A stretch of DNA of 64,000 nt from Terriglobia bacterium (GTDB lineage: Bacteria > Acidobacteriota > Terriglobia > UBA7540): positions 1-64,000 of the forward strand of contig JASHON010000205.1 in the NCBI GenBank assembly GCA_030041095.1, read 5' to 3'. Below the pieces are notes generated by a model. That model saw only the letters and a program-made list of their open reading frames with translations, ran no database searches and was not told the origin of the DNA. The translations under genes and the position numbers were made by a program. Of this stretch, positions 55,018-58,302 are shown in pieces (position 1 is the stretch's first letter; every line of letters begins with the position of its first letter).

Positions 55018-56262
55018 ATGAATTTCCCTCCCCCTCCATGGACGCGTCCTACTTGGGCTGAAATCGACGGCGGGGCGCTGCGGCGCAATTTCGCGCGCGC
55101 CCGCGAACTGGCCGGCCGGCGTAAGATCATGGCCGTCGTCAAGGCGGATGCCTACGGGCACGGCGCTCCGCAAGTGGCCCGCACGCTCGATGCATGCGGC
55201 GCCGATTGGTTCGGAGTGGCGACGGTGGAAGAGGGCATCGAGCTGCGCAAGGCAGGTATCTCCAAGCCTGTGCTCCTGCTCGGCGGACTTTACCTCAGCG
55301 ATCCCGCCGCTTTGATCGAGCATCAGCTCACCCCGGCCGTCTCCTCCACGGCCAGGCTCGATCTTTACGCCCAATGCGCGCAGCGCGCCAAATGCCCGCT
55401 GGATTTCCATCTCAAGGTTGACACCGGAATGGGGCGGTTAGGAATGCCGCCCGCACTCCTCGAGCCTTTCGTCGAGCACCTCCGTCAGCTCAATGGGGCA
55501 TGCGGAACTGCCGGCGGAGGATTGCGCCTGACCGGCTTCTTCACCCATCTCGCCTCAGCGGAAGACCTGGTCTCCGGACAGAGCCAGCAGCAGCTTGACT
55601 GCTTCGCCAGCGCCCTCAGCCGCCTTCGCGCGTCCGGCGTGTTTCCCGAGTGGGTGCATGTCTCGAACAGTGCTGCCGTACTCACTCGGAGCGGGATTGA
55701 AGAGAATATGGTTCGGATCGGCGCGCTGCTCTACGGCTATTGCCTGCCGCTCGTACTTCCCGCAGATAGCGCTGGGCCGCTGCTGCCACGCCTGGAGCCC
55801 GTGCTGAGTCTGAAATCCTGCGTCATCTTCCTCAAAGACCATCCCGCGGGCCATCCACTGGGCTACGGAGGTTCTTACATCACACGCCAACCGTCACGGA
55901 TTGCCACGCTGCCTGTGGGGTACGCAGACGGGCTCAGCCGGGCGTTGTCCAACCGGGGACGAGTCATTGTTCGCGGGAGTTATGCGCCGATCGTCGGCAA
56001 AATCAGCATGGACCTGACCCTCGTCGACGTTACCGGAATTCCAGGTGTGACCGTGGGAGATGAAGTAGTACTGATCGGAAGGGACGGGGAGTGCTGCATT
56101 ACTGCTGAGGATGTGGCTCGCGAAGCCGGCACGATTGCTTACGAAGTTCTCTGCGCCATCGGGAAACGCGTTCCCCGTGTTTTCGTAGACTCATCGTCAT
56201 CAGTGGAGCCATCTTCCTTGGTGGCGGCGGGCGGAAACACCTCCGGAAACATTCGGCGATAA
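55018..56262 (+). CDS. alr: Alanine racemase
   Basis: Start ATG 55018 gives 414 residues. The PLP lysine is in AVVKADAYGHGA, the catalytic tyrosine in GYGGSYITRQ, and the C-terminal beta domain includes ATLPVGYADGLSRAL and KISMDLTLVDVT. It converts L- to D-alanine for peptidoglycan. The C-terminal tail runs about 30 residues past the usual KRVPRV end. It overlaps the 3' end of hisA on the other strand by 124 bases. Confidence 0.93.
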   Translation: MNFPPPPWTRPTWAEIDGGALRRNFARARELAGRRKIMAVVKADAYGHGAPQVARTLDACGADWFGVATVEEGIELRKAGISKPVLLLGGLYLSDPAALIEHQLTPAVSSTARLDLYAQCAQRAKCPLDFHLKVDTGMGRLGMPPALLEPFVEHLRQLNGACGTAGGGLRLTGFFTHLASAEDLVSGQSQQQLDCFASALSRLRASGVFPEWVHVSNSAAVLTRSGIEENMVRIGALLYGYCLPLVLPADSAGPLLPRLEPVLSLKSCVIFLKDHPAGHPLGYGGSYITRQPSRIATLPVGYADGLSRALSNRGRVIVRGSYAPIVGKISMDLTLVDVTGIPGVTVGDEVVLIGRDGECCITAEDVAREAGTIAYEVLCAIGKRVPRVFVDSSSSVEPSSLVAAGGNTSGNIRR

Positions 56263-56918
56263 ATGGATACTCCGAGCGCGGCATTCATGCCCAACGCTTC
56301 CAAGTCCTCAATTTCTGCCTCCGTCGTAATCCCTCCGGCCGCGGTGATGGGTAAGGCCGTGACGGAGCGCAAGGCTCGAAACCAATCGATACGCGTTCCT
56401 TGATGTTTGCCTTCCACATCCACGCAAGTGCACAGGAACTCTGAGCAATAACGCTCGAGTTGTGGCAGCACTTCTCGAGAAGTCAGCGGCAGCACTTCTT
56501 TCCATCCTCGAATGGCGACGTGATCGTCCAGGCAATCCACCGCAATCATGCGCTGTTCCCAAGGAATGGCCGCGGCAAATTGTTCCAGAAACGCACGGTC
56601 GATCCCATCCGGCGTAAAGGCAGCGCTACCCACGATCACCTTCGTGGCGCCCTGGCGCGCCACTTCACGCACGCGCTCAACGCTGCGAATGCCTCCGCCC
56701 ACGCGGCACGGTTTCATGCGGCAGAGTTGCGCGACGGTGTCCGCGTGCGGCTTTCGTCCGAGCGCCGCATCAAGGTCGATCACTTGAATTTGAGGAAACG
56801 AGTGAAATCGCGCCGCCACTCCGGGCACATCAGCCAACTCCAACACCTTGGCTTCTTCCCTTCCTTGGACGAGTTGGACCACTTTTCCACCCATCAGATC
56901 GATGCAGGGAATGATCAT
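56139..56918 (-). CDS. hisA: HisA-type 1-(5-phosphoribosyl)-5-aminoimidazole isomerase
   Basis: A 259-residue TIM barrel. The catalytic Asp7 is in MIIPCIDLMGGKVVQL; the phosphate-binding loops include CRVGGGIRSVERV, VIVGSAAF, ITAAGGITTEAEI and NAALGVSIY. It isomerises ProFAR to PRFAR in histidine synthesis. The last about 25 residues (ATKEDGSTDDDESTKTRG) are a low-complexity tail lying on the alr gene. It is the last gene of the minus-strand unit with DinB and the peroxiredoxin. Confidence 0.88.
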   Translation of the reverse strand: MIIPCIDLMGGKVVQLVQGREEAKVLELADVPGVAARFHSFPQIQVIDLDAALGRKPHADTVAQLCRMKPCRVGGGIRSVERVREVARQGATKVIVGSAAFTPDGIDRAFLEQFAAAIPWEQRMIAVDCLDDHVAIRGWKEVLPLTSREVLPQLERYCSEFLCTCVDVEGKHQGTRIDWFRALRSVTALPITAAGGITTEAEIEDLEALGMNAALGVSIYRRMFPEVFPPAATKEDGSTDDDESTKTRGTRFPMAQRTS

Positions 56919-56926
56919 GGTAGATG

Positions 56927-57412
56927 TCAGACGTGGTACGGGCTCGCCTTTTGGCCGGTAAGGACGTGAAGGAAGGCACTCACTTGCGCTCGGTGATGAA
57001 TGTGGTGCTCTGTGATGCCAAAAAGGACGACAGCAACGCGCCGGCGGATTTGGAGCGACTCGTTCACCCTCTCTTCTTCCCAGCGGTCAAGCGGAAGCTT
57101 GGAAACCTGGCGCACCGTTTCCTGATGAACGTTTTCGATGTGGCCGAGCTCCTTTTCAAGCGACTCCACGCCGCCCAAGACAGCTCCCAATCCCTGCGGA
57201 ATGCGCCGCTCGAAATACCCGAAATCGCCATCGATCGCCATCCGGCGCGCGCCTTCTTCGGACACCCACACGTGGCGCACCATTTCGCCGAGCGAGAGCA
57301 TGTCCGGCGCGGGCCGCCAGGCCATCTGCTCCGCCGGGATTTGGCGAAACACTTTGAGGACACCTTCGTGCGTGGCCTGTTTCTGTTTCAGAAAAAACTC
57401 TTTGAGATCCAT
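56927..57412 (-). CDS. DinB-family four-helix protein
   Basis: A 161-residue protein of the DinB/YfiT type, an all-helix fold with a metal-binding histidine triad. Candidate histidines are in MVRHVWVSEE and FGITEHHIHHRAQVS. Some relatives act as bacillithiol transferases; others have no known substrate. It lies 8 bases before hisA and 22 bases after the peroxiredoxin, on the same strand. Confidence 0.8.
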   Translation of the reverse strand: MDLKEFFLKQKQATHEGVLKVFRQIPAEQMAWRPAPDMLSLGEMVRHVWVSEEGARRMAIDGDFGYFERRIPQGLGAVLGGVESLEKELGHIENVHQETVRQVSKLPLDRWEEERVNESLQIRRRVAVVLFGITEHHIHHRAQVSAFLHVLTGQKASPYHV

Positions 57413-57434: not shown

Positions 57435-57917
57435 TCAGTCCAGTTTTCTCACAGCTTCCAAAACTTCGCTGACGCCCGGAAGTTGCCGCAACTCGTAGAC
57501 TTTTGCCCACGCGATCGTGCCATTCTTGTCCACAATAAAAATGGCCCGGTCGTTGGCGAAAGGCACCGGATGGCGGGCCGCGGGAAAGATGCCATACGCT
57601 TCAGCCGTTTTGGCGTAGGGCCAGCGATCCGTACCCAGCGGATAAGTCAAGCCGCCCAATGACTTCTGGTAAGCGATGTGCGAGTACACAGTATCTGTGT
57701 TGACGCCCACGACCTGGGCGTTGGCTTCGGCAAAGTGCGGGATCTCTGCCTGGAATGCCTTCAATTGGTCCGTTCAAACCGGCGTGAAGTCAAGCGCGTA
57801 GAACTGGATCACGACGGCTTTCCCGCGGTAGCTGGAAAGTTGGAATTCTCCCTGCTTTTCGCCCGTTGCACAAGCCAGCTTGAAATCGGGCGCGGCGTCT
57901 CCTTGCTTCAATGCCAT
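57435..57917 (-). CDS. Putative selenocysteine-containing peroxiredoxin (in-frame UGA at residue 48)
   Basis: Start ATG 57917 follows GGAGGTTTAAGG. The frame gives 160 residues if the UGA at 57776-57774 is read as selenocysteine. The N-terminal half, ending in VIQFYALDFTPV, then UGA, then TDQLKAFQAEIPHFAEANAQ, is an AhpC/TSA peroxiredoxin with the UGA exactly where the peroxidatic cysteine stands (FTPVCT). The second half continues without defects to a normal UGA stop (NKNGTIAWAKVYELRQLPGV). A short stem-loop with GGCA loop can be drawn just after the UGA, as a bacterial SECIS needs. It would reduce peroxides. A nonsense mutation is the alternative. Confidence 0.75.
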
Positions 57918-58302
57918 CCTTAAACCTCCGTGAGCGGTCTCAACGCCTCAATCTCAGGCGTTGCGGCGGCGGGAGAATCTTCACCGCCCAACTTCAACTG
58001 CTTTATGATTGGGGCAGAGTTGCTCCGGACGTCGTCCCCGTCGCTCTCCCAACCCTGAGCCCACTTTACCGATTGTATCCCAATCATCATCGGGCGCGAA
58101 AGCCGCCGCAGCCCATCCGGGACTCGGTGAAATTTCCCTGGCGCTCGCCGCCCGCAACGCTGCTCCCGCTTCGGCCCCGCGGAGCGCCGTGGATAGCGGT
58201 ACTTGCAACGTGCGGAAAGGGACGCAAGAATAAACGTCGTGGCGTACCTGGAGGGACCCGCTGGCACGGTCTTTATATATCGCTCACCCACCCGCCAACC
58301 CG

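Follow-up and report, generated by a model that had tools for sequence, protein, structure and literature searches.

A limited distance between the UGA codon and the loop bound by SelB is a central rule of selenocysteine (Sec) insertion in bacteria and is built into bSECISearch, and a SECIS hairpin displaced from its usual place bears directly on this rule. The bacterial SECIS (bSECIS) model describes a small loop with a G in one of the first two places, often of the form N1-G-[G/U]-N-N2, at 16-37 nt from the UGA (PMC13188914). For the SECIS of Escherichia coli, SelB binding is assigned to U17 and G23, with U24 likewise fixed, and 11 nt separate the UGA from the upper hairpin (PMC8659212). Some bSECIS elements break the model, and distinct classes may exist (PMC13188914, PMC12013277). 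Among the proteins made in this way are the Sec-containing peroxiredoxins (Prx, PF00578, TxxU), of which the first to be purified came from Eubacterium acidaminophilum (Sohling 2001, cited in PMC13188914). Twelve Prx selenoproteins were listed in 2006, when four selenoproteins of three families were given for Acidobacteria (PMC1794560), and an acidobacterium is among the test genomes of deep-Sep (PMC12013277). A Sec peroxiredoxin is thus by itself a protein of an already known kind. The layout described below, two hairpins with the putative SECIS loop on the distal one, looks new, and no description of it was found when open-licence papers were searched for selenoproteins of Acidobacteria or a distal bSECIS.

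The stretch of DNA analysed here (the window) comprises 64,000 nt from the genome of a soil bacterium of the Terriglobia (Acidobacteriota; GCA_030041095.1, contig JASHON010000205.1), and the features under study, all on its minus strand, are collected in Table 1. The interval 57917-57435 very probably is the gene for a 1-Sec peroxiredoxin, in which UGA48 would be decoded as Sec by means of a two-hairpin signal (P1 and P2) with P2 as the SelB hairpin. Translated with the TGA read through, it gives MALKQGDAAPDFKLACATGEKQGEFQLSSYRGKAVVIQFYALDFTPV-U-TDQLKAF...VRKLD, a product of 160 aa with the UGA as codon 48, and apart from this one internal TGA and the terminal TGA the frame is open. The read-through protein matches the Pfam domain AhpC-TSA (PF00578) over residues 6-137 (E 6.7e-31; 107 bits compared with a cut-off of 26), and with translation table 11 the sole ORF in this frame is a 109-aa C-terminal fragment beginning at TTG 57764. 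A sequence-only reading of the window had pointed out the single TGA in a frame intact on both sides, its position at the catalytic Cys of a peroxiredoxin (FTPV-U-TDQL), a good ribosome site, DinB and hisA alongside, and the likelihood that standard gene callers would see the second half only, and it had concluded that a selenoprotein was likely. Its description of the gene holds: the translation has one internal TGA, the TGA lies in FTPV-U at the peroxidatic position, where 13 orthologues have Cys codons, a GGAGG precedes the ATG, DinB_2 and hisA follow downstream on the same strand, and gene calling gives just the C-terminal fragment. The selenoprotein reading itself is supported by the Sec machinery in the genome and by the homologues with TGA or Cys codons.

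Table 1 Features of the Sec peroxiredoxin locus in the window; positions with a plus sign are counted from the UGA
Feature	Position	Strand	Remarks
Selenoprotein peroxiredoxin gene (predicted)	57435..57917	-	161 codons including the terminal stop; AhpC/TSA fold
UGA predicted to encode Sec, peroxidatic position (FTPV-U)	57774..57776	-	From reading-frame translation and orthologues
Shine-Dalgarno sequence GGAGG	57925..57929	-	7 nt upstream of the ATG
P1, proximal (spacer) hairpin	57723..57759	-	+15..+51 here (+12..+48 in the consensus); covarying stem, unconserved loop
P2, distal hairpin ACGCCCA-GGUCG-UGGGCGU	57703..57721	-	+53..+71; proposed SelB-binding SECIS hairpin
P2 apical loop GGUCG	57710..57714	-	+60..+64
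DinB_2 protein, downstream neighbour	56927..57412	-	Also adjoins the gene in several relatives
hisA-like (His_biosynth), downstream neighbour	56139..56918	-	

With the known Sec peroxiredoxins the protein shares Sec in place of the peroxidatic Cys in TxxU, the AhpC/TSA fold and the existence of Cys homologues. It differs from them in having no second conserved Cys, which assigns it to the 1-Sec type, and in the active-site motif PxxxT/SxxC/U, of which the TxxU part is present and the Pro is replaced by Ala, as in most Sec forms of the family. By sequence it is not an equivalog of PrxU either (NF040737: 55.7 bits, below the cut-off of 270), and its relatives of solved structure include 2-Cys Prx chains and Rv2238c (AhpE) of Mycobacterium tuberculosis. 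This Pro is almost universal in the PxxxTxxC motif of peroxiredoxins; its exchange for Ala at codon 41 (57797-57795, minus strand) is found in 17 of the 21 family Sec forms, the Pro being kept in 13/13 Cys forms and in 26/30 distant Sec forms; when the correlation between this exchange and Sec was examined on the tree, the independent switches were too few.

The sequence-only reading had hung its proposal on selA, selB, selC and selD, and all four components are present in the genome of the window, a draft assembly of 207 contigs: tRNA-Sec with the anticodon UCA on C67 (73 bits, gathering threshold 47), SelB on C196 (348 bits over two pieces, C-terminal domain included), SelA on C179 (561 bits), and SelD on C146 (360 bits). 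A second SelB-like match (C95) proved to be EF-Tu. The trait is widespread in the family: among its 39 genomes, the better ones contain tRNA-Sec in 18/18 cases and SelB in 17/18. An attempt to split Sec and Cys genes by the presence of the machinery failed, and since most genomes with the Cys form possess it as well, co-occurrence of the machinery across genomes is not used as an argument here. Decoding of the UGA by a Cys or Trp tRNA instead of tRNA-Sec is highly improbable: one tRNA of the genome, on C199, does have the shape of tRNA-Sec, but its Cys anticodon, GCA, reads UGC/UGU and not UGA, and a bona fide tRNA-Sec(UCA) is present together with SelA, SelB and SelD. This selC*-like tRNA (C199:13227-13316, corresponding to L002:1501-1590, minus strand) exceeds the gathering threshold of Rfam tRNA-Sec (51 versus 47 bits) and adjoins a peroxiredoxin-like gene; selC* tRNA-Cys has been listed for Firmicutes, Thermodesulfobacteria, Nitrospirae and Proteobacteria, not for Acidobacteria (PMC7609411).

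Full-length orthologues from the 39 family genomes carry TGA in 21 cases and TGC/TGT in 13 at the same codon. Homologues were also read from four further families within the class (f4, f10, f11, f14); 30/30 of them, at 37-52% identity, have TGA, so that TGA occurs at this codon in 51 homologues across five families with identities down to 37%. A lone TGA in an otherwise open frame has the look of a nonsense mutation, a pseudogene or a sequencing error, but with TGA at the catalytic codon of all these homologues, a conserved protein downstream of it and a full Sec machinery in the genome, the probability of such an origin is negligible. The sequence-only reading had called a chance nonsense mutation improbable and had recommended an alignment with Sec and Cys homologues, and the 21 family orthologues with TGA, the 13 with Cys codons and the 30 homologues elsewhere in the class agree with it. 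As dozens of genomes independently show TGA here, a sequencing error can be regarded as excluded in practice.

Two hairpins recur past the UGA in the Sec genes, P1 and, farther on, P2. P2 has the consensus A[C/U]GCCCA-GGUCG-UGGGC[G/A]U, a stem of 7 bp at a constant distance from the UGA in the Sec genes read, and its loop starts 59-60 nt past the UGA. The loop dinucleotide G61-U62 is invariant in 50/50 distinct Sec genes; the bases flanking it can pair as N1-N2 (G/C, A/U) in part of the genes and are otherwise open (G/G, G/A), and the loop forms observed (GGUCG, A-GUC-U, G-GUU-C) fit the N1-G-[G/U]-N-N2 of the bSECIS model (PMC13188914). By a strict criterion, 46/51 Sec rows and 0/13 Cys rows have an intact P2; some Cys genes contain remnants such as the decayed P2 of L036 (ATACCCAGGTCGTGGGCAT, one mismatch), as expected after loss of Sec. 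Synonymous-site constraint in the Sec genes is strongest at +53 to +71 after the UGA (codons 18-24): over residues 65-71 the codon identity is about 0.95, compared with about 0.43 expected from the genes' own usage, the top of 160 windows. Analysed separately, the family of the gene and the distant families each show this peak, and the Cys orthologues lack it. Likewise, RNAalifold predicted P1 (core) and P2 from the Sec genes and no structure from the Cys orthologues. In a 32-sequence alignment, one basal pair of P2 is exchanged in a compensatory manner (C-G in 22, U-A in 9). The covariation score is 0.161, compared with 0.096 for shuffled alignments (0/500), and drops to 0.02-0.09 after sliding of the strands. 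Since this alignment contains no variation in the upper five pairs of P2, covariation is silent there and the argument rests on the frozen synonymous sites. These conserved, covarying hairpins are confined to Sec genes and, like the position of the UGA, the machinery and the Sec and Cys orthologues, belong to what can be read directly in the genomes.

It is very unlikely that Sec is inserted here and P2 is conserved for another cause, be it an RNA signal of some other kind or a peptide constraint together with codon bias. Conservation of the encoded peptide AQVVG could carry part of the freezing, but the Cys orthologues mostly retain QVVG and yet vary its codons, and neither the compensated pair changes at the base of P2 nor the excess of codon identity over expectation is in keeping with this explanation.

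P1 starts 11-14 nt past the UGA, and a gap of 1-4 nt separates it from P2. The stem of P1 shows compensatory changes (A-U in 15 and G-C in 11 at an inner pair; U-A, U-G and C-G at an outer pair), and its loop varies among the Sec genes (GACCU, GAUCU, GUAU, AUCCCGCA and others). The stem-loop that the sequence-only reading had drawn about 14 bases past the TGA was only roughly right, the G-U loop belonging to a conserved hairpin at +53 to +71; in the same manner, the bSECIS sought in the 60 bases after the TGA has its counterpart in SECIS-like conservation about 59 nt downstream and not at about 14 nt. An ordinary SECIS, in which SelB binds P1 at the canonical distance and P2 is accessory (pausing, translation rate, or protection from termination), is the most probable of the rival readings, although we consider it unlikely. 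It agrees with the start of P1 at 11-14 nt, with the covarying stem, and with the MFE folds of the first 51 nt: 28/50 of these, mostly with GACCU or GAUCU, satisfy the loose bSECIS rule by placing a G at loop position one or two within 16-37 nt, and in some members of the family P1 could therefore act as a SECIS by itself. Against it, the P1 loop is unconserved, G[G/U] occurs in the loop of only 2/50 genes, the hairpin of the window's gene is in the distance range but has no loop G, and both loop conservation and frozen synonymous sites are features of P2. By a relaxed rule applied to the 50 distinct Sec genes, 49/50 possess a distal hairpin whose loop starts with G, and 11/50 a plain hairpin in the canonical range. 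On the basis of loop conservation and of these canonical-range counts, P1 as the sole SECIS was judged less likely.

Because the conserved loop and synonymous sites lie in P2 and not in P1, they point to P2 as the SelB hairpin and to P1 as a folded spacer. In the proposed mechanism, the UGA at codon 48 would be decoded as Sec by the Sec-tRNA-Sec that SelB carries, with the two-hairpin element, P1 followed by P2, as the putative recoding signal. P1, which begins about 11-14 nt after the UGA, would be positioned at the mRNA entry of the ribosome, and P2 would offer its G-U loop (N-G-U-N-N) to SelB. By closing the extra distance as a spacer, P1 might enable P2, 59 nt away in sequence, still to deliver SelB to the A site; with P1 at 11-14 nt and P2 within a further 1-4 nt, the folded distance can, as far as the sequences tell, approach the usual one. 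Extended to the class, the element is probably an acidobacterial bSECIS variant in which the G-U loop for SelB sits about 59 nt from the UGA, on a distal hairpin, and a folded-spacer hairpin restores the geometry on the ribosome. P2 resembles the bSECISearch consensus and the fdhF element of E. coli as a hairpin within the coding region after the UGA, with a short stem and a small loop starting with G-U. It departs from the bSECIS consensus in the position of its loop (59-60 nt, outside the canonical range of 16-37 nt) and in the second covarying hairpin between, and from fdhF in that its stem has no bulged U like U17.

For the class-wide survey, 399 genomes were scanned with an RNA model. The gene of the window matches the R1 model with 73.5 bits, and the scan revealed another 19 Sec genes of this protein family (L166-L184) in addition to weaker matches. 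The weaker matches inspected were Cys orthologues and tandem Sec-peroxiredoxins, and among them no unrelated gene with the two-hairpin element was found. The locus containing hisA, often with DinB_2, is kept by a Sec form (L034) and by Cys forms (L031, L041, L048), and the Cys gene of the genus's other member has the same context. On a tree of 64 rows at least three changes between Sec and Cys are needed, two of them forced by well-supported branches, and a single clade of Cys forms is rejected (p-AU 2e-5). As all outgroup rows are Sec, repeated loss of Sec in favour of Cys within the family is the simplest reading. With so few independent switches of this kind (at least two to three), a tree-based test of whether UGA and P2 go together cannot become significant. 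The approximately 50 Sec genes with Cys sister genes in the same locus as controls form a natural set for the distance rule and its geometry, and searches limited by distance will miss or mis-assign genes with a displaced hairpin.

Other selenoprotein genes of this lineage, which presumably use the same SelB and whose loops, like that of P2, mostly start with G-U or G-G, have their SECIS at the canonical place in contrast to the distal position of P2. In the SelD genes of the family the element is GAGUCCAA-GUAUU-UUGGACUC with the loop at +20 after the UGA, and in tandem Sec-peroxiredoxin pairs of relatives it is GGCGUAUCA-GGC-UGAUAUCGCC, whose loop is placed at about +24. The lineage thus uses canonical SECIS elements elsewhere, and it is the Sec-peroxiredoxin family of the window that departs from them. 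Since the homologous tandem peroxiredoxins keep a canonical hairpin at the place of P1, P1 may be the remnant of an old SECIS, and a shift of the SelB loop away from P1 onto P2 would be a plausible history.

SelD of the window's genome is itself a selenoprotein, with an in-frame TGA in VKAAG-U-AAK (L021:1531-1533, on C146) and a canonical SECIS of 8 bp with the loop GUAUU; this arrangement is common to most relatives, some of which have TGC. The tandem loci (L097-L116, in G018, G011, G005 and other relatives) consist of adjacent peroxiredoxin genes, both with an in-frame TGA at the active site and canonical SECIS hairpins. Such pairs are common in the family, though no TGA-bearing match of this type was found in the window's own genome. 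In family f5, a tandem-type Sec-peroxiredoxin (L185, G382:C246) combines a canonical hairpin with a P2-like stretch, GCCCAGGTCGTCGGC, at the place of P2, and is a possible intermediate between the canonical and the distal-hairpin layouts.
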